Of a stretch of DNA of 64,000 nt, positions 10,601 to 29,803 are shown one piece after another; the stretch's first letter is position 1; each line of letters starts with the position of its first letter. The stretch lies in the NCBI RefSeq assembly GCF_003568865.1, contig NZ_CP031115.1, forward strand, positions 992,001-1,056,000. The letters are read 5' to 3'. Position numbers and translations under genes: made by a program. The notes under the pieces were generated by a model that saw only the letters and a program-made list of their open reading frames with translations, was not told where the DNA came from and made no database searches. Source of the stretch: Rubrobacter indicoceani. Lineage in GTDB: Bacteria; Actinomycetota; Rubrobacteria; Rubrobacterales; Rubrobacteraceae.

Positions 10601-11584
10601 TTGCCGGAGGAGGGCGGGATCACGGAGTTCGAAGGGCTAAGGGTTGTGGCCGTTGCTGGCGGGGTCGGCGGGGCGAAGATGGCCGCCGGGCTGGAGGGGG
10701 TCTCCGGAGGCGAGGGGCTTTCGGTGGTCGTCAACACCGCCGACGACTTCGAGTTGTGGGGTCTTCACATCTCGCCGGACGTGGACACGGTTATGTATAC
10801 GCTTGCCGGGCTTGCGAACCCGGAGACCGGGTGGGGGATACGGTCGGAGACCTTTGCGGCCCTTGAGATGATCTCGGCCTACGGCGAGAAGCCGTGGTTC
10901 AGGCTCGGCGACCGGGACTTTGCGACGCATATCCTGAGGACGGAGCGGTTGCGTTCCGGCGAGTCGCTGACGGGGGTAACGGCGAGCCTGGGCGCCGCGC
11001 TTGGGGTCAGGAGCCGGGTGCTGCCTATGACGGATGCCCCGGTCGCGACCGTTATAGAGACGCCGGAGGGGAAGCTGAACTTCCAGGACTACTTTGTGGG
11101 GCGCGGTCAGCGGGACGAGGTGATCGGGGTCGAGTTCCTGGGGATGGGCGAGGCGCGTCCGACGCGGGAGGTGCTTAAGGCGGTGAGGGAGGCGGAGGCG
11201 ATCGTACTCTGCCCGTCGAACCCGGTCGTGAGCGTAGGCCCGGTGCTTGAGCTGGCGGGTATGCGGGAGGCGATATCCGGTCTGAGGGCTCCGAAGGTTG
11301 CCGTGAGCCCGATAGTCGGGGGCCGGGCGCTGAAGGGGCCGGCGGGGAAGATGCTCGCCTCGCTCGGACACGAAGCCTCCGCCGCCGGGGTGGCGCGGAT
11401 GTACGCCGGGCTGGTGGACGGCTTTGTCGTTGACCACGCCGACGCGGGTGGGCGGAGGGAGATAGAGTCGCTCGGGCTGGAGGTTCTTGTCACGGACGCG
11501 GTGATGAAAGACGAAGGGGACCGGGTGCGACTCGGGCGCGAGGTGCTGGAGTTCGCGGTCGGGCTGTCGGGTCGGGCGGGTTGA
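10601..11584 (+). CDS. fbiA: 2-phospho-L-lactate / phosphoenolpyruvate transferase CofD (FbiA), F420 biosynthesis
   Basis: About 327 aa. It transfers the lactyl- or PEP-phosphate moiety from the guanylylated donor to FO, giving F420-0 or dehydro-F420-0. The N-terminal GGVGGAKMAAGL is the family nucleotide-binding signature, followed by VVNTADDFELWGLHISPDVDTVMYTL, and the C-terminal half has LCPSNPVVSVGPVL and VSPIVGGRALKGPAGKM. The TTG start at 10601 is uncertain. A strong GGAGGAGGG (10605-10613) lies inside this frame, and GTG 10646, right before the GGVGGAK strand, is an alternative. The stop overlaps the next gene (TTGATGG), indicating coupling to cofC. Confidence 0.93.
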   Translation: MPEEGGITEFEGLRVVAVAGGVGGAKMAAGLEGVSGGEGLSVVVNTADDFELWGLHISPDVDTVMYTLAGLANPETGWGIRSETFAALEMISAYGEKPWFRLGDRDFATHILRTERLRSGESLTGVTASLGAALGVRSRVLPMTDAPVATVIETPEGKLNFQDYFVGRGQRDEVIGVEFLGMGEARPTREVLKAVREAEAIVLCPSNPVVSVGPVLELAGMREAISGLRAPKVAVSPIVGGRALKGPAGKMLASLGHEASAAGVARMYAGLVDGFVVDHADAGGRREIESLGLEVLVTDAVMKDEGDRVRLGREVLEFAVGLSGRAG

Positions 11585-12222
11585 TGGCGGGCATCCCCTG
11601 CAGGGACGTGCTGGTCGTAGTTCCGGTAAAAGACCTTGCCGGCACAAAGAGCAGGCTCGCCCCGATCCTCGACCCCGACGCCCGCGCCGGGCTCACCATC
11701 TACATGATGCGCCGGGTTGTCGGGGCCGCCCGGTCGGCGGGGGTCGGAGAGGTCTGTGTCGTCAGCCCGGACGTGGTGGTGCTAGCCGAAGCGGAATCGG
11801 TCGGGGCGACCGCCGTTATGCAGCGCGGTCGGGGCCTGAACGCCGCCCTTGAAAGCGAGGGGCTGAGCTTTGCGGCCGGGCGCGCCGCCGCGGCCATGCT
11901 CGTCCTTCCGGCCGACCTGCCGCTCCTGGAGCCGGAGGACGTGGCCGGGGTGCTAGAGCGAGCCGCTGACAGACAGGTCGTTATCTCGCCGGACGGCTCA
12001 CGAACCGGAACAAACGCCCTGCTTCTCGCGCCGCCGGACGCGATGGGGGGGTTCCGGTTCGGGATCGGCAGCTTCGACCTGCACCGCGAGGCCGCCCGCG
12101 AGGCCGGGGTCTCCGTTGTCGAGTACGAGAACGCCCACCTCGCCTTTGATCTGGACACCGGGCTCGATCTCGCCCGGCTGGGGCGTCTGGAGCCGGGGGG
12201 CGCGACGCGGCGCCGGGCGTAG
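11584..12222 (+). CDS. fbiD: 2-phospholactate / PEP guanylyltransferase CofC (FbiD), F420 biosynthesis
   Basis: A 212-aa MobA-like nucleotidyltransferase. VVVPVKDLAGTKSRLAPIL is the CofC N-terminal signature, MLVLPADLPLLEPEDV holds the metal-binding Asp pair, and AHLAFDLDTGLDLA closes the domain. It activates 2-phospholactate or, as in mycobacteria, PEP with GTP to make the unstable donor used by CofD. The ATG shares one base with the cofD stop. The DAHP synthase directly downstream also consumes PEP. Confidence 0.92.
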   Translation: MAGIPCRDVLVVVPVKDLAGTKSRLAPILDPDARAGLTIYMMRRVVGAARSAGVGEVCVVSPDVVVLAEAESVGATAVMQRGRGLNAALESEGLSFAAGRAAAAMLVLPADLPLLEPEDVAGVLERAADRQVVISPDGSRTGTNALLLAPPDAMGGFRFGIGSFDLHREAAREAGVSVVEYENAHLAFDLDTGLDLARLGRLEPGGATRRRA

Positions 12223-12325: not shown

Positions 12326-13441
12326 TTGAACGAGACCGAAGAGAAGCAGACCGCGAGCCGGGGCCGGGAGGCCGCACGTTCTCTGACGACAAGTGACCTG
12401 CGCGTCAGAAGCATCCGCCCGCTTATAGCCCCCGCAATCCTCCACGAGCAGTTTCCGCTCTCGCCCGAGGGGGCGGATCTGGTGCAGAAGACGCGGGGTG
12501 AGATAGCCGCGATCCTTAACGGTGAGGATGATCGGCTCATAGCCGTCGTCGGGCCGTGTTCCATTCACGACCCGGAGGCCGCCCTCGACTACGCCGCGCG
12601 CCTCGCCAAGGTGCGCGACGAGCTCTCCGAAGACCTGCTAGTCGTGATGCGCGTCTACTTCGAGAAGCCGCGTACGACCGTCGGCTGGAAGGGCCTGATC
12701 AACGACCCGTACCTCGACGAGAGCTACGCCGTCAACGACGGCCTCTCCATCGGGCGGCGGCTCGTCCTTGACCTCGCGGGGATGGGTATCCCCGCAGCGA
12801 CGGAGTTTCTTGACCCGATCACCCCGCAGTTTTTCTCGGACATTCTGGTCTGGTCGGCTATCGGGGCCCGCACCACCGAATCTCAGGTCCACCGCCAGCT
12901 CGCGAGCGGCCTCTCGATGCCGGTCGGGTTCAAGAACGGCACGGGCGGCGGGGTTCAGATAGCCGTTGACGCGGTCGGCGCGTCCATACACCCGCACAGT
13001 TTTCTCGGGGTTACGGATCAGGGCCTCGCCGGTATCGTGACCACCGAGGGCAACCCCGACTGCCACATCATCCTCCGGGGCGGCAAGAACGGCCCGAACT
13101 ACGACGCCGGAAACGTCGCTTCCACCCTAGATCTCCTCGAGAAGGCGAAGCTACCGCGCCGGGTGATGATCGATGCAAGCCACGCAAACTCGGAGAAGGA
13201 CTACAGAAACCAGCCGAAGGTCGTCTCCGACATCTCGGAGCAGATAAGGAACGGCCAGCGGGAGATAGTCGGCGTGATGATGGAGAGCTTTATAGAGGAC
13301 GGGGCGCAGTCGCTCGGCGGTAAAACCGGCCGGGACGACCTTACCTACGGACAGTCCGTAACCGACTCGTGCATGGGCTGGTCCATGACCGTCCCGACCC
13401 TCCGCGAACTCGCTTCGGCCGTCCGTGACCGTCGCGCCTGA
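12326..13441 (+). CDS. aroG: 3-deoxy-7-phosphoheptulonate (DAHP) synthase, class I
   Basis: A 371-aa enzyme for the first step of the shikimate pathway (PEP plus erythrose 4-phosphate). Recognisable motifs are VVGPCSIHDPEAAL, YFEKPRTTVGWKGLINDP, ATEFLDPITPQFF, GARTTESQVHRQLASGL, FKNGTGG and DASHANSEKDY, all typical of AroF/G/H. The start is TTG 12326 with AGAGGT six bases upstream; ATG 12278 is in frame but poorly placed. It sits between cofC and cofE and overlaps cofE by 17 nt, so it is part of the F420 operon. Tyrosine from this pathway is a precursor of FO, which may explain the grouping. Confidence 0.93.
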   Translation: MNETEEKQTASRGREAARSLTTSDLRVRSIRPLIAPAILHEQFPLSPEGADLVQKTRGEIAAILNGEDDRLIAVVGPCSIHDPEAALDYAARLAKVRDELSEDLLVVMRVYFEKPRTTVGWKGLINDPYLDESYAVNDGLSIGRRLVLDLAGMGIPAATEFLDPITPQFFSDILVWSAIGARTTESQVHRQLASGLSMPVGFKNGTGGGVQIAVDAVGASIHPHSFLGVTDQGLAGIVTTEGNPDCHIILRGGKNGPNYDAGNVASTLDLLEKAKLPRRVMIDASHANSEKDYRNQPKVVSDISEQIRNGQREIVGVMMESFIEDGAQSLGGKTGRDDLTYGQSVTDSCMGWSMTVPTLRELASAVRDRRA

Positions 13442-14204
13442 AAATATCCCCGCGTTGAACGGCGGAATCCACATCCTCCCCGTAGCTCGAATGCCGGAGG
13501 TGCGCCCCGGCGACGACCTGAACGAGGCGATCCTGAACTCCGCCGGAAACGACCTCCGGGACGGCGATATCCTTATCGTTACGCACAAGGTCATCAGCAA
13601 GGCCGAGGGCAGGCTCGTCGCCCTGGCGGACGTCGAACCGTCGCCCTTTGCTCGTGATTTCGCCGCCCGCAACGGCAAGGACGCCCGGCAGGTCGAGGTT
13701 GTCCTGCGCGAGTCAAAGCGCATCGTGCGCATGGTCGGTGGCCTGATCATCGCCGAGACGCGCCACGGCTTTATCTGCGCAAACGCCGGGGTGGACGCCT
13801 CGAACGTCCCGGGCAACGATACGGTCTGCCTTCTCCCCGAAGACCCGGACGCCTCCGCCCGTCGCATCCTGGCCGCCGTGAAAGATCGCCTCGGCCTGAG
13901 CCGCGTCGCCGTGATAGCCACGGACTCGTTCGGGCGCCCGTGGCGGGCGGGCATAACGAACATCGCCGTGGGAGTCGCAGGCATCTCACCGCTCACTGAC
14001 TACCGGGGCGGCAAGGACCCGCACGGCTACGACCTTGAAGCAAGCGTCCTCGCCGTCGCCGACGAACTCGCCGCCGCCTCCGAACTCGTCATGAACAAGG
14101 TCGACGCCGTCCCCGCCGCCATAGTCCGCGGCTACCCGTTCAAGGCCGCCGAAGGCTCCGCAACGGAGCTCGTCATGCCCCCCGAAAGAGACCTTTTTCG
14201 GTAG
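13425..14204 (+). CDS. cofE: Coenzyme F420-0:L-glutamate ligase (CofE; stand-alone)
   Basis: A 259-aa gamma-glutamyl ligase that adds glutamates to F420-0 with GTP. It has GDDLNEAI, DGDILIVTHKVISKAEGR, ICANAGVDASNVPG, IATDSFGRPWRAGITNIAVG and the C-terminal ATELVMPPERDLF, all hallmarks of the CofE family. In mycobacteria this domain is fused to a nitroreductase domain (FbiB). Here it ends after the ligase domain, and a nitroreductase domain of that type occurs separately, fused to a PPOX domain, at 24693-25868. The GTG start lies inside the end of aroG. Confidence 0.92.
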   Translation: MTVAPENIPALNGGIHILPVARMPEVRPGDDLNEAILNSAGNDLRDGDILIVTHKVISKAEGRLVALADVEPSPFARDFAARNGKDARQVEVVLRESKRIVRMVGGLIIAETRHGFICANAGVDASNVPGNDTVCLLPEDPDASARRILAAVKDRLGLSRVAVIATDSFGRPWRAGITNIAVGVAGISPLTDYRGGKDPHGYDLEASVLAVADELAAASELVMNKVDAVPAAIVRGYPFKAAEGSATELVMPPERDLFR

Positions 14205-23718: not shown

Positions 23719-23785
23719 CGAAGTCAAATCGGTTGAAGTTCAAGTTGAGATCACATTGTTCCTGTAGTTGACGGAGGGGGAGTTC

Positions 23786-24574
23786 GTGGCGTTTTCGGGT
23801 ACTGGCAGGTTCTTCGGGATGGTTCGGCTTATGGTCGGGGTCGTCCTGGCGATAATGGCATCCGTTGCGGTGATGGCGTTTTCCGCAGGTGAGGCGAAGG
23901 CCGATACGGCCCTGACATCGTGGTACGGGCCGGGGTTTGCGGGCAACCCGACGGCCAGCGGGGAGATCTACGACCCCTACGGCTACACCGCCGCGCACAA
24001 GACCCTGCCGCTCGGGACCGAGCTCGTGGTGAGCTACGGCGGGAACTCCGTGAACGTGGTCGTCAACGACCGGGGGCCGTACATCGAAGGCCGCGAGCTG
24101 GACCTCTCGCAGGGGGCCGCCGAGTATCTCGGGCTGACCCGGGCCGGGGTGGATTACGTGGATTACTACGTCTCCGGTCAGGGTTACACCGGGGAAGGGA
24201 GCGTCACCTCGGAGCAGAGCGCTGTCTCTGAGCAGAGCACCGGGTCGGTCAGCACGCAGAGCACGAACGTCGGGTCGGGCGGCTACGTCACCAGCCAGAG
24301 CTACGTCTCGTCGGAGAGCACCGTCTACGAGTCCTCCGGCGGGTCGTCGGGCGGCGGGGTGGCGTACTCCGAAGCGAGCAGCAACACCGACGTGAGCGTC
24401 TCCCAGAACGTCGTCAGCTCCGACGGCGGCGGGAGCGGCGCGCACATCGTGCAGTCGGGGGAGACGCTCTCGGAGCTGTCCGGGTCTCTCGGGGTCTCGG
24501 TGGATCACCTCGCGTCGGTGAACGGGATCTACGACGTTGATCACATCCTGAGCGGCCAGACCCTGTACTTTTAG
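23786..24574 (+). CDS. Secreted RlpA-like double-psi beta-barrel protein with LysM domain
   Basis: 262 aa. A signal peptide (hydrophobic VRLMVGVVLAIMASVAVMAF, then GEAKAD) leads into an RlpA/expansin-like barrel (about 42-135): TSWYGPGFAGNPTASGEIYD, AHKTLPLGTELVV, VVVNDRGPYIEGRELDLSQGAAEYLG. A long Ser/Gly/Val-rich linker (145-215) follows, then a C-terminal LysM (HIVQSGETLSELSGSLGVSVDHLASVNGI...ILSGQTLYF) that binds peptidoglycan. It is likely a wall-remodelling enzyme or structural protein. GTG 23786 is chosen because GGAGGGGG lies five bases upstream; a TTG at 23768 is also in frame. Confidence 0.88.
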   Translation: MAFSGTGRFFGMVRLMVGVVLAIMASVAVMAFSAGEAKADTALTSWYGPGFAGNPTASGEIYDPYGYTAAHKTLPLGTELVVSYGGNSVNVVVNDRGPYIEGRELDLSQGAAEYLGLTRAGVDYVDYYVSGQGYTGEGSVTSEQSAVSEQSTGSVSTQSTNVGSGGYVTSQSYVSSESTVYESSGGSSGGGVAYSEASSNTDVSVSQNVVSSDGGGSGAHIVQSGETLSELSGSLGVSVDHLASVNGIYDVDHILSGQTLYF

Positions 24575-24692: not shown

Positions 24693-25868
24693 ATGTCTGT
24701 AGAAGGCAGAGACCGGGCTTCCGGGCTGTCATCCGGCTCAGGGGCCGGGCACAGCGGGGGAGCGGGGCGCGAGGCTGAGCCGGTGGTATCCGGCGAAGCC
24801 GCCGCCTTTCTCTCTCGCAGCCGGGTCGCCCGGTTTGCAACGCTCGACGGGAACGGCGAGCCGCATCTGGTTCCCGTCTGCTTCGGCGTCGCGCCGGGTG
24901 CGGGACGTATCTACATAGCCCTCGATGAGAAGCCGAAGAGCGTGGACGTCCGACGCCTGAAGCGCGTCAGGAACCTTCTGGAGAACCCGTCCGTCGCCCT
25001 CACCGCCGACCGCTACACCGAAAGCTGGAGACGGCTGGCCTTCGTGATGGTCCGGGGCAAAGCAGGGTTGCTCGAAGCCAGAACCGACGAGCACACCGCC
25101 GCTGTCAGGCTCCTCCGGGGCAAGTACCACCAGTACGAAGCGATGCGGATAGAGAAGAGCCCCGTTATCGCAATCACCCCCGAGAAGGCGACCTCGTGGG
25201 GGGATCTATCACCGTTATCACCGCTGGAAAGCGGATTGTCGGGGGATGATAAAGGCAGGATGCCCAACCTCGAAGACGCCCTGAGGGGCCGCCGCTCGGT
25301 CCGACGCTACCTCGACCTCGACGTGTCGGACGAAAAGGTCGAGCGCGTCCTTGAAGCCGCACGTTACGCCCCGTCGCCACACGGCACGCAACCCTACCGG
25401 CTGGCCGTCCTGCGCTCCGAGCGGACAAAAAAACGCCTCGCCGACGCCATGGGTAACGAGTGGGTCCGCAACCTGGAGCTCGACGAACAGCCCGCCGAAG
25501 TCGTTGAAAAGCGGCTCAGAGGCTCGCGCAGGCGGCTTCTGGGCGCGCCCGTGCTTGTCCTTGTCTGCCTCTACACGGCGGACCTCGACCACTACCCGGA
25601 CGAAAAACGCCAGCGCGACGAAAAAACGATGGCCGTGCAGGCGCTCGGCGCGGCGACCCAGAACATGCTCCTCGCCGCCTACGATGAAGGCCTCGACACC
25701 GGCTGGATGTGCGCCCCGCTCTTTACCCCCGAGACCGTCCTGGAGGCGTTGGGTCTCGGTGAAGACCTTGTACCGCACGCCCTTATAACCCTCGGATACG
25801 CCGACGGCGACCCGCCCAAACGTCGCCCCCGGAGGTTGCTCGAAGACCTCGTGATCTACCGGGACTGA
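24693..25868 (+). CDS. Fusion of Rv0121-type PPOX (F420-binding) domain with FbiB-C-like nitroreductase domain
   Basis: 391 aa. Residues 35-172 are a split-barrel flavin/deazaflavin domain: RVARFATLDGNGEPHLVPVCF, ALDEKPKSVDVRRLKRV, NPSVALTADRY, typical of the Rv0121 PPOX F420 group. Residues 193-391 are a nitroreductase domain: RRSVRRYLDLDVSDEKV, ARYAPSPHGTQPYRLAV, DHYPDEKRQRDEKTMAVQALGAATQNMLL, GLDTGWMCAPLF. The second half matches the C-terminal domain of mycobacterial FbiB, which uses FMNH2 to reduce dehydro-F420-0. CofE is separate in this genome, so this protein is the best candidate for that step. SD GGAGGAGG precedes ATG 24693. Its end overlaps the convergent gene by 13 nt. Confidence 0.85.
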   Translation: MSVEGRDRASGLSSGSGAGHSGGAGREAEPVVSGEAAAFLSRSRVARFATLDGNGEPHLVPVCFGVAPGAGRIYIALDEKPKSVDVRRLKRVRNLLENPSVALTADRYTESWRRLAFVMVRGKAGLLEARTDEHTAAVRLLRGKYHQYEAMRIEKSPVIAITPEKATSWGDLSPLSPLESGLSGDDKGRMPNLEDALRGRRSVRRYLDLDVSDEKVERVLEAARYAPSPHGTQPYRLAVLRSERTKKRLADAMGNEWVRNLELDEQPAEVVEKRLRGSRRRLLGAPVLVLVCLYTADLDHYPDEKRQRDEKTMAVQALGAATQNMLLAAYDEGLDTGWMCAPLFTPETVLEALGLGEDLVPHALITLGYADGDPPKRRPRRLLEDLVIYRD

Positions 25869-26287
25869 TCCCGGAGTCTCGCGGCGCGCGCCTCGAACTC
25901 GGCCAGCTTGCCGTCCGCCGAACGCTGTGAACCCCTCGGCAGACGACCGCTCTTCGCCAGCCGGATAAACGCTTCGGTGACGTGCAGGGCTTCTTCGCTT
26001 CGTCCCTGACGGCCGTAGATGCCGGCCAGCCGCTCGTAGGGGCTGGCGCCGACGAACTCCTCCGCGACGTTCTCTTTATAGAGTGCTTCGGCTGTGCCGG
26101 GGTCGCCGCTCTGCTCCGCTTGCATCGCCTGGAAGTTGCGCTCCGCCTGCCGGTCGTAGTTTTTGAGCAGGTCATCGTCCGTCCCGATGCGCTCCAGCTC
26201 CTCCTGGCCGAGCAGCGGCTCGGAGACGCCGGAAGGCCCCCCGGCGGGCTCGCTGCCCCCGCCGAAGAGCCTCCTGAAAAAACCCAC
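25856..26287 (-). CDS. Small TPR-like protein
   Basis: 143 aa. It begins MGFFRRLFGG, an amphipathic or membrane-contacting start common in small cytosolic TPR proteins. It then has helical pairs resembling tetratricopeptide repeats: AERNFQAMQAEQSGDPGTAEALYKENV, then PYERLAGIYGRQGRSEEALHVTEAFI. Probably a protein-interaction module with no known substrate. It lies 11 nt after the fbiC stop on the same strand, so it is likely cotranscribed, and it overlaps the convergent PPOX-nitroreductase gene by 13 nt. Confidence 0.75.
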   Translation of the reverse strand: MGFFRRLFGGGSEPAGGPSGVSEPLLGQEELERIGTDDDLLKNYDRQAERNFQAMQAEQSGDPGTAEALYKENVAEEFVGASPYERLAGIYGRQGRSEEALHVTEAFIRLAKSGRLPRGSQRSADGKLAEFEARAARLRDQSR

Positions 26288-26298
26288 CGTCCCGAGCC

Positions 26299-28719
26299 TC
26301 AGACGGTCGAGTGCTCGCGCGGCTCCGGCGTGCCGTAGAGCGTGTTGCGAAGGCGCGGCGTACGCCCGAGCTCCCGAATCAGGCCCTCCAGTTCCTCGGG
26401 GAGCATCTCCTGGCCGTGATCCGCCCCGGCGGCCCGGCTTATGCTCTCGTTCATGAGCGTCCCGCCGAGGTCGTTGCAGCCCGACTCAAGAGCGACCTTT
26501 GCGCCCTCTGCGCCGAGCTTGACCCAGCTGACCTGAACGTTGTCTATGTAGCCGTGCAGGGCGAGCCTGCCGACGGCGTGCATCTTTATGGTCTCCGAGA
26601 ACGTCGGCCCGCGGCGGGAGTTCCCCTGCAGAAAGAGCGGCGCGCCCATGTGTACGAACGGCAGCGGGATGAACTCCGTGAAGCCACCCGTCTCGGCCTG
26701 CAGGTCACGCAAAACGAGCAGATGCCGCGCCCAGTTTACGGGCCGGTCCACGTGCCCGAACATGATCGTCGTCGTGGACTGCAACCCGATGGCGTGCGCC
26801 GCCCGCATCACCTCGACCCACTCCCCGGTGTTGACCTTGTCCGGGCAGATGATGGCCCGCACCTCGTCGTCCAGAACCTCCGCCGCCGTACCGGGCAGCG
26901 TCGAAAGCCCGGCGTCCTTCAACTCCGCAAGGAAGTCCTCGATAGAGATGCCGAGCGTCTTCGCCCCCTGCGAGACCTCCAGCGGCGTAAAGGCGTGAAC
27001 GTGCATCCCCGGCACCTCTTCCTTGACCGCCCGCAGGTACTGGAGGTAGTTTTTGCCCGTAAACGAGCCGTGAATGCCGCCGACCATCGTGACCTCGGAG
27101 GCTCCCTTGTCCCACGCTTCTCTGGCGCGCCGGGCGACCTCGTCGGTGTCGAGCAGGTACGGGTCACCCCGCAGGTTGAGCGACTTCGGACCCTTGCTGA
27201 AAGCGCAGAACTTGCAGCGGAAGTAGCACAGGTTTGTGTAGTTGATGTTCCGGTTGACGACGTAGGTTACCTCGTCGCCGTTCACCTCCCGGCGCAGCTC
27301 GTCCGCGACGCGGCAGAGCTCGGAGAGCTCCGTCCCGCGCGCGGTGAACAGAAGCTCTATCTCGTTGAGGTCTAGGTCCCGCTCCCCGACTCTGGCGAGC
27401 ACCTTCGTGAACTCCGGCCTCATCTTCGAGGGACGACCGCCCCGCGCCTCTACTACCTCTTCTCCGGGGATGCCGTACGAGACGCCCGGCGACCAGTCGT
27501 GCGCCCGTGCAAAGCCTTCGGAGTCCATGTCCGCCTTGACCTTCGGCCGGAGTTTTTCGTCCACCCAGCGTTCCACGTCAAGCGCGTAGGCCGGGTGCAG
27601 CGCGAGCCTCTGAAGAAGCAGGTAGCCCTTCGCCTCCGTTGCCGCTTTCAGGGCATCGAGGTGGGGCCAGGGCCTCTCGGGGTTGACGTGGTCGGGGGTA
27701 ACGGGGCTGACGCCGCCCCAGTCGTTGATCCCGGCGTCGATGTAGCGCGTGTACGAAGGGTCGCCGGAGGCGACCTCGTCGTCCCCTTCTCCGGCGAGGT
27801 TCGGCGGGGCCTGCACGGTCATCTCCGGCGGCAGCAGAAGCCGCGCCAGCGCGATGGTCGCGAGCATTTCACGCTCGGACGGCTCGGGGGAACCTTCCAT
27901 GCGCGTCCCCGGCTTGGCCCGGAAGTTCTGGATGATGCACTCCTGAACGTGGCCGTACCGCGAGTTGATGTCCCGGATGGCGAGAAGCGTATCCACCCGT
28001 TCTTCGAGCGTCTCCCCGATGCCGATAAGAATGCCCGTCGTAAACGGCACGCCGAGCTTCCCGGCGTTCTCTAGAGTTTCGAGCCGCTTCTCGGGGTTTT
28101 TGTCCGGCGAGGCCCAGTGCGCGAGGTCCCGCCCGAGGAGCCTGCCGGAGACCTCTTCCATCATGATCCCCTGCGAAACCGAAACGCCCCGCAGCAACTT
28201 CAGATCTTCTTCCGAGAGAACGCCGGGGTTTGCGTGCGGCAACAGCCCCGTCTCCTCGAAGACGAGCCGCGAGCAGTGCGCCAGGTACTCGACGGTCGTT
28301 GCAAAGCCGAGTTCTCCGAGCTCGGCCTTCGCCTCCCCGTAGCGCTTCTCGGGCTTGTCGCCGAGGGTGAAGAGGGCTTCCCTGCAGCCCGCGTCGGCGC
28401 CGACGCGGGCTATCTCCAGTACTTCTTCCGGGGTGAGGTAGGCGCGTTCGCCGGGGCGCGGCCCGTGGGCGAAGGTGCAGTAGCCGCAGTTGTCGCGGCA
28501 GAGCTTGGTAAGCGGGATAAAGACCTTGCGCGAGTAGGTGACGCGCGGCCCGAAGGCGCGGTCGCGGACCTCCGCAGCCGCCTCCATCGCCGGGAGCGGG
28601 TCCTCTACGGCGAACGCCGCCAGCCTGCAGGCGTCTTCGCGAGGGAGACCGCCGGAAGACTGAAGGTCTTTTGCGGTCGAGATCAGGGCCAGGTAATCGT
28701 TTTTGCGGATGGTATCCAT
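26299..28719 (-). CDS. fbiC: 7,8-didemethyl-8-hydroxy-5-deazariboflavin (FO) synthase FbiC (CofG-CofH fusion)
   Basis: 806 aa. Two radical-SAM halves make FO from tyrosine and 5-amino-6-ribitylaminouracil. The N half (CofG type) has CRDNCGYCTFA and the C half (CofH type) has NLCYFRCKFCAFSKG; both are CxxxCxxC. The SAM-domain phrases PHANPGVLSEEDL and GGIHGSF are also present. ATG 28719 is chosen; AGGAG lies 11 nt upstream and a GTG at 28741-28743 is possible. Fusion is the actinobacterial arrangement. It is divergent from the rhodanese gene across a 211-nt region carrying the sulfur-type dyad. Confidence 0.95.
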   Translation of the reverse strand: MDTIRKNDYLALISTAKDLQSSGGLPREDACRLAAFAVEDPLPAMEAAAEVRDRAFGPRVTYSRKVFIPLTKLCRDNCGYCTFAHGPRPGERAYLTPEEVLEIARVGADAGCREALFTLGDKPEKRYGEAKAELGELGFATTVEYLAHCSRLVFEETGLLPHANPGVLSEEDLKLLRGVSVSQGIMMEEVSGRLLGRDLAHWASPDKNPEKRLETLENAGKLGVPFTTGILIGIGETLEERVDTLLAIRDINSRYGHVQECIIQNFRAKPGTRMEGSPEPSEREMLATIALARLLLPPEMTVQAPPNLAGEGDDEVASGDPSYTRYIDAGINDWGGVSPVTPDHVNPERPWPHLDALKAATEAKGYLLLQRLALHPAYALDVERWVDEKLRPKVKADMDSEGFARAHDWSPGVSYGIPGEEVVEARGGRPSKMRPEFTKVLARVGERDLDLNEIELLFTARGTELSELCRVADELRREVNGDEVTYVVNRNINYTNLCYFRCKFCAFSKGPKSLNLRGDPYLLDTDEVARRAREAWDKGASEVTMVGGIHGSFTGKNYLQYLRAVKEEVPGMHVHAFTPLEVSQGAKTLGISIEDFLAELKDAGLSTLPGTAAEVLDDEVRAIICPDKVNTGEWVEVMRAAHAIGLQSTTTIMFGHVDRPVNWARHLLVLRDLQAETGGFTEFIPLPFVHMGAPLFLQGNSRRGPTFSETIKMHAVGRLALHGYIDNVQVSWVKLGAEGAKVALESGCNDLGGTLMNESISRAAGADHGQEMLPEELEGLIRELGRTPRLRNTLYGTPEPREHSTV

Positions 28720-28812
28720 GCCGTCAGTATACTCCTCGCTCACTCCCCCAATGCTTGTGATTATAGGCACGTTCAGGCCCCGCCGTCTGCGTCCGGTCGA
28801 CGGGTCAGCAAT

Positions 28813-28831
28813 CCCGACTAAATTTGTCGGA
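28813..28831. promoter_or_regulatory. Sulfur-regulator operator candidate, site 2 (fbiC / rhodanese divergent region)
   Basis: CCCGAC (28813-28818), a W-only 7-nt spacer, GTCGG (28826-28830) then A. It matches the cysH site at 14292-14310 in both half-sites and in spacer length and composition. It overlaps the -35 of the rhodanese promoter, a position that suits repression, and lies 94 nt upstream of the fbiC start. Confidence 0.6.
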
Positions 28832-28853
28832 GATAGATCTTTTGCGTTACAAT
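28824..28853 (+). promoter_or_regulatory. Promoter of the rhodanese-SufU operon
   Basis: TTGTCG (28824-28829), an 18-nt spacer, TACAAT (28848-28853). Predicted start near 28860. The -35 lies inside the right half of the dyad. SD AAGGAGGAT precedes the ATG at 28931. Confidence 0.55.
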
Positions 28854-28930
28854 ACGGCCCTGTGCGGTCGGATATCCGGCTGCAGGACGCGGAAATGTAA
28901 AAGAGGTTTTCAAGGAGGATCGCGAGCATC

Positions 28931-29803
28931 ATGGCCGATGAGATACAGGATAAAGGCTACGCCCACCCGGACTTTCTGGTTTCGACGGACTGGGTGGCGG
29001 AGCATCTGGACGACAGTTCCATCCGCATCGCCGAGTCCGACGAGGACGTTCTGCTCTACGAGACGGGGCACATCCCGAACGCCGTCAAGCTCGACTGGGT
29101 AGAGGACCTGAACGACCCGCTTGTCAGGGACTACCTCGACCCGGAGCAGTTCGCGAAGCTCATGAACGAGAAGGGCATCACGCCGGATACGACCGTTGTG
29201 TTCTACGGCGACCGGAACAACTGGTGGGCGACGTACGCGCTGTGGGTCTTCCAGCTTTTCGGCCACGACAAGGTCAAGGTCATGGACGGCGGCCGGACCA
29301 AGTGGGAGGCCGAGGGCCGCGAGATGACCACCGACGTTCCGAGCTTCAGCGGCGGCGACTACCCCGTTCCGAGCCGGGACGACTCAAAGATAAGGGCCTT
29401 CAAGGAGGACGTGGAGAAGCACCTCGAGAAGGTCGGCGACGGCGGCTCGATGATAGACGTCCGCTCGCCGGGCGAGTACTCGGGCGAGCTTCTGCACATG
29501 CCGGACTACCCGCAGGAGGGCTCGCTTCGCGGCGGCCACATCCCCGGCGCGGCGAACGTACCGTGGGCGCAGGCCGTGCGCGAGGACGGAACTTTCAAGA
29601 GCGCGGACGAGCTCAAGGAACTCTACGAGGGCAAGGCCGGGCTGAAGTCCGACGACGACGTGATCGCGTACTGCCGCATCGGCGAGCGTTCGAGCCACAC
29701 GTGGTTTGTGCTCAAGTACCTTCTCGGCTACGACAGCGTCCGCAACTACGACGGATCGTGGACCGAGTGGGGCAACGCCGTCCGCGCCCCCATCGAGCGT
29801 TAG
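28931..29803 (+). CDS. sseA: Thiosulfate sulfurtransferase (two-domain rhodanese, CysA/SseA type)
   Basis: 290 aa with two rhodanese domains. The N domain (about 15-135: [34 protein letters not shown]) is inactive. The C domain (about 150-285) has the active loop [14 protein letters not shown] with the persulfide Cys, the same loop as mycobacterial CysA2/CysA3. It transfers sulfane sulfur from thiosulfate or a related donor. It is followed by a SufU-like gene and a terminator. The promoter carries the same dyad as the sulfate-assimilation operon, which supports a sulfur-supply role. Confidence 0.93.

Follow-up and report, generated by a model that had tools for sequence, protein, structure and literature searches.

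The window analysed here is a stretch of 64,000 nucleotides from the genome of Rubrobacter indicoceani, and positions 24693–25868 of its forward strand hold a single uninterrupted open reading frame of 391 amino acids in which an N-terminal split barrel of the PPOX/FDOR-B2 type is fused to a C-terminal FbiE/FbiB-C-like nitroreductase (NTR) domain. A possible other start is offered by a GTG codon in frame 15 nt upstream, and the first 30 residues of the protein show no conservation. The split barrel (residues 35–169; 24795–25199, forward strand) matches TIGR03668, the model of Rv0121-type PPOX proteins, with 157.3 bits and thus above the curated cut-off of 119.15; its nearest solved structures by both sequence and fold are those of MSMEG_6526 (PDB 4zky as well as 5jv4 with F420 bound). 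The NTR domain (residues 193–389; 25269–25859, forward strand) matches TIGR03553, the model of the FbiB C-terminal domain, over residues 196–389 with 135.4 bits (E 2e-39), which misses the cut-off of 249.55 so that this half is not filed as FbiB; stand-alone NTRs of Chloroflexota score at the same level (138–149 bits). Its best PDB match by sequence and fold is nonetheless the C-terminal domain of FbiB in complex with F420 (4xoq; ca. 35% identity), and a further match to the FMN complex 4xoo gives it the fold of the NTR superfamily including the FMN site. Pfam models for PNPOx_N and Nitroreductase (PF00881, 110 bits) were found on the same protein, and an AlphaFold2 model built with 52 relatives (mean pLDDT 86.9, pTM 0.63) consists of two confident domains connected by a linker (residues 170–192; 25200–25268, forward strand) that is of low confidence at residues 183–191. 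The original prediction of a Rv0121-type PPOX domain and an FbiB-C-like nitroreductase in one protein is therefore borne out; the motif that it had given as DYPDEKR actually reads HYPDEKR. Intact homologues in ca. 65 other loci rule out a chance reading frame or artefact, and the stops inside three rubrobacterial matches sit upstream of the start. An RNA family search and a promoter scan around the fusion gene yielded nothing useful.

The same window encodes much of the F420 pathway. An FO transferase gene, cofD (10601–11584, forward strand; TIGR01819, 309.7 bits, above cut-off), is overlapped at its stop by a guanylyltransferase gene, cofC (11584–12222, forward strand; 212 aa), which was read from the sequence and has a homologous open reading frame adjoining cofE or cofD in relatives. 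The F420:gamma-glutamyl ligase gene cofE (13425–14204, forward strand; TIGR01916, 280.5 bits, above cut-off) encodes 259 aa that match only residues 10–243 of the 449-residue FbiB model, i.e., its ligase part without any NTR domain, so CofE indeed stands alone as had been proposed. The space between cofC and cofE is taken up by a DAHP synthase gene, aroG (12386–13441, forward strand), whose end overlaps the beginning of cofE, while cofC and cofE are adjacent without aroG in the relatives where both genes were read (loci L058, L061, and L068). PEP is a substrate common to DAHP synthase and to CofC (in the PEP route). Convergent with the fusion gene lies fbiC (cofGH), encoding FO synthase (26299–28932, reverse strand; NF006687, 1102.8 bits, above cut-off).

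Several further neighbours of the fusion gene were recorded. Its 3′ end overlaps by 13 bases with a convergent open reading frame of 143 aa (25856–26287, reverse strand) that is kept in several Rubrobacteria and had no NCBIfam match. Directly upstream of the fusion, most Rubrobacteria carry a gene for a luciferase-like (LLM) oxidoreductase (L055:7665–8786 and homologues), which abuts the fusion in 20 of 26 named rubrobacterial loci; in the R. indicoceani window no LLM gene is found at this place, which is taken by an RlpA/LysM-like gene (23768–24574). One such luciferase-like protein scored 154 bits with TIGR03619 and therefore below the cut-off of 166.9, so that this protein may use either F420 or FMN.

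The fusion is a recurrent architecture. It was found full-length or nearly so in about 30 of 40 Rubrobacteria genomes (62–69% identical), and a few others gave partial matches in which the fusion is cut at contig ends; the genomes without it are drafts. No fused match was detected outside Rubrobacteria among 150 sampled Actinomycetota, where the NTR belongs to FbiB or adjoins cofE. A scan of 84,980 species then placed about 35–36 fused loci from outside Rubrobacteria, nearly all of them in Chloroflexota, among its best 80 loci, together with stand-alone NTRs from Ktedonobacteria and relatives that are 54–61% identical to the C-terminal half. In nearly all fused loci found, both domains share one open frame, and their order (PPOX, then NTR) was constant across the loci read. 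The search for this architecture in other genomes, which had been suggested as a check, thus revealed it repeatedly in two groups, Rubrobacteria and Chloroflexota. Fusion is not required, since many relatives have an unfused NTR and a PPOX gene elsewhere: in the class of genome G177, the fusion is present in ca. 24 of 150 genomes, and the NTR stands alone in most of the remainder, frequently alongside a TIGR03668-type gene at another site. The fusions of two metagenome-assembled genomes titled Rubrobacter sp. (loci L104 and L106) cluster with Chloroflexota sequences of the Thermobaculaceae type, and these titles may be wrong.

The ancestry of both halves was studied in trees calculated with a quick method. 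In the NTR tree (137 rows, with plain NTRs as outgroup), the NTR half groups with FbiE and FbiB-C proteins and not with other NTRs. In a single clade (SH-aLRT 100), the NTRs of Rubrobacteria sit among the FbiE-type NTRs of Chloroflexota; a separate group (SH-aLRT 99) is made up of actinobacterial FbiB-C domains and stand-alone NTRs. This placement rules out that the domain was relocated from FbiB, as the original prediction had it; the NTR half is of Chloroflexota type, and its gene looks to have passed between Chloroflexota and Rubrobacteria and not to have been excised from an actinobacterial FbiB. For the PPOX half (85 rows, 144 columns), a single origin of all fusions was rejected (AU p=0.0015), while the NTR half did not contradict it (AU p=0.555), both values coming from a quick search with few columns. 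The simplest reading of these trees would be that the same two families have been joined, or parted, more than once.

What the NTR half might do is indicated by its residues, its setting, and the rest of the genome. Docking assigned P289 and M372 of FbiB to the pocket for the enolpyruvyl group and R337 to a contact with the carboxylate (PMC6450877). In our alignment, P289 and M372 correspond to P229 and M313 of the NTR half and are both missing from plain NTRs, so two of the three docked-substrate residues are kept with R337 as the exception: its column holds Gly277 in all 29 rubrobacterial proteins. The same column varies among stand-alone NTRs as well and is occupied by K, R, G, or others in Chloroflexota, where the local alignment contains a one-residue gap; R274 (FbiB R334), which lies near Gly277, is present in 129 of 133 rows. 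Seven further residues (R204, H230, W257, D264, Y301, G319, and F344) are invariant in the 133 FbiE/FbiB-C rows and variable in four plain NTRs. Strong TIGR03553 matches in the Actinomycetota sample were FbiB fusions, NTR genes adjoining cofE, or the rubrobacterial PPOX fusions, and CofE was present in 40 of the 42 genomes with such a match. Ktedonobacteraceae carry a stand-alone NTR that is 56–61% identical to the C-terminal half in clusters of the order cofE-NTR-cofD-cofC, and dehydro-F420 reductase activity is reported for the stand-alone NTRs of Thermomicrobia (PMC8498797, PMC8764529). Among 84 CofE-positive genomes of the Actinomycetota sample, 44 gave no FbiE/FbiB-C match at E≤1e-20.

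The R. indicoceani genome is 99.99% complete and contains a single FbiE-type gene; the next NTR, a plain nitroreductase without the FbiE-specific residues, reaches only 51 bits with TIGR03553. A second FbiB-C-like gene, which had been named as the finding that would speak against the original prediction, is therefore absent, and the fusion is the best and the only candidate dehydro-F420 reductase found in this genome. The missed TIGR03553 cut-off and the replacement of R337 by glycine count against this assignment and would suit a generic nitroreductase with no part in F420 maturation, but an FbiE is favoured by the clade, the neighbourhood, the FbiE-specific columns, and the nearest structure alike, which makes the generic enzyme very improbable. 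We conclude that the cell very probably has its dehydro-F420 reductase in the NTR half and assign a probability of roughly 0.85 to FMN-dependent dehydro-F420 reduction as the predicted activity of the fusion protein. It is likely, too, that this activity comes together with a split barrel that in one way or another works as its functional partner.

The contribution of the split barrel might lie in the supply of electrons. FbiB assays required Fre, FMN, and NADH to yield FMNH2 (PMC6450877), and no in vivo electron donor for FbiB was stated in the open literature that we searched. By analogy to the pathway in other bacteria, CofC and CofD would make dehydro-F420-0 from PEP and FO, the FbiE-type NTR with its FMN would hydrogenate the enolpyruvyl double bond, and the stand-alone CofE would add the glutamate tail. 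The split barrel, as a member of the FDOR-B2 family, would bind F420H2 and keep the FMN of the NTR half in its reduced state; the final reduction in the making of new F420 would then be paid for by F420H2 that is already mature. We tentatively prefer this transfer of electrons from F420H2 to the FMN of the NTR half among the roles considered for the split barrel, at somewhat less than even odds, and the occurrence of the pairing in two phyla suggests how the last step of F420 synthesis may obtain its electrons. Circumstantial support comes from the nearest solved relative, which binds F420, and from the PPOX half itself, which retains 25 of the 28 columns that are conserved among separate members of its family, including D78, K80, K82, R91, N94, D106, Y108, W112, Y145, Y148, and W169. 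Across genomes, TIGR03668 proteins co-occur with CofE (39 of 42 genomes, Fisher p=3e-9). Indirect support is provided by gene order in Chloroflexota: at loci L102 and L106, cofD-cofC-cofE are followed by an FGD-family gene (TIGR03557, above cut-off), a TIGR03560 LLM gene, and then the fusion, and at L193 a TIGR03560 gene overlaps the fusion start by eight bases. Since the FGD-family proteins of L102 and L106 score still higher with TIGR03885, an FMN-dependent sister model, though below its cut-off, their cofactor is not settled. Fno (TIGR01915) as a source of F420H2 had no match above cut-off in the 40 Rubrobacteria genomes. In the FDOR enzymes known so far, hydride moves from F420H2 straight to small substrates and not to protein-bound FMN (PMC8498797), and this speaks against its transfer to a second flavin bound by protein.

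This direct mode of transfer to diverse substrates (PMC8498797, PMC5449967) would agree with a split barrel that is an independent F420H2-dependent reductase with a substrate of its own, joined to the NTR for co-expression only. Many Chloroflexota carry the two families at unlinked sites, and TIGR03668 and FbiE/B show no significant co-occurrence among CofE-positive non-rubrobacterial Actinomycetota genomes (p=0.09). However, the PPOX half indicates that these two families were fused or split apart more than once, which together with the constant domain order favours a functional link, and we consider mere co-expression rather unlikely. Alternatively, with the NTR half acting as reductase, the split barrel could only bind and hold F420 or dehydro-F420, raising its local concentration or handing it over to CofE or F420-dependent enzymes. 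Such holding, which the original prediction had put forward, can likewise draw on the retained columns and on the F420 bound to the nearest solved relative, as well as on the reported co-purification of FbiA with dehydro-F420-0, which implies that intermediates can be protein-held (PMC7253369). It would leave the FGD-family and LLM genes that adjoin the fusion in some Chloroflexota unaccounted for, and we judge it an unlikely sole function; electron supply fits the split barrel at least as well as holding substrate or product. We are far more sceptical of a split barrel that acts as second dehydro-F420 reductase by transferring hydride from F420H2 directly onto the enolpyruvyl double bond: FDOR enzymes do hydrogenate electron-poor alkenes with F420H2, but MSMEG_6526, the nearest solved relative, reportedly has a small pocket and belongs to a class that is weakly active on non-quinone substrates (PMC5449967), and an FbiE-type NTR is already there. 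Returning to electron supply, its furthest extension would see the fused protein as a self-contained F420H2-driven dehydro-F420 reductase in a self-reinforcing loop and the separate FDOR-B2 proteins of other F420 producers as the missing electron donors of FbiB and FbiE, a combination that we regard as quite a long shot.

Present in two phyla and apparently formed or split more than once, the fusion links two questions that can be tested with one protein, namely how FbiB is supplied with FMNH2 and what the physiological substrate of FDOR-B2 proteins is. As a single gene for the maturation step, it could also be of use where F420 is produced in E. coli. Stand-alone reductases of the FbiE type and FDOR-B2 proteins are each known singly, while their fusion is apparently undescribed: as the original prediction had surmised, neither a description of the PPOX-NTR architecture nor a characterised enzyme with this domain pair was found in the open-access literature searched.

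Braga et al. (2020) reportedly described FbiE as the stand-alone dehydro-F420 reductase of Thermomicrobia. The system studied here shares with it an FbiE-type NTR next to a stand-alone CofE, and the NTR half falls among Chloroflexota-type FbiE sequences, but the Thermomicrobia enzymes are described as stand-alone NTRs (the T. roseum enzyme is likened by description) whereas a PPOX/FDOR-B2 domain occupies the N-terminus here. Compared to the C-terminal domain of M. tuberculosis FbiB (4XOM, 4XOO, and 4XOQ), the closest match in the PDB, the NTR half keeps both P289 and M372 but differs by the glycine in place of R337, by its TIGR03553 score (135 vs. 249.55 bits), and by its partner, since the FbiB domain is joined to CofE, which is a separate protein in R. 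indicoceani. The N-terminal half resembles FDOR-B2/TIGR03668 proteins (the Rv0121 family with MSMEG_6526; 4ZKY, 5JV4) in model score and conserved columns, though the characterised member is a single-domain protein whose physiological substrate is not known (PMC8498797). Gene fusion itself recurs in F420 biosynthesis, as seen for FbiC (CofG-CofH) and FbiB (CofE-NTR), but these two proteins each join two enzymes of the pathway, whereas in the rubrobacterial protein an enzyme of the pathway is combined with a member of a family that uses F420.
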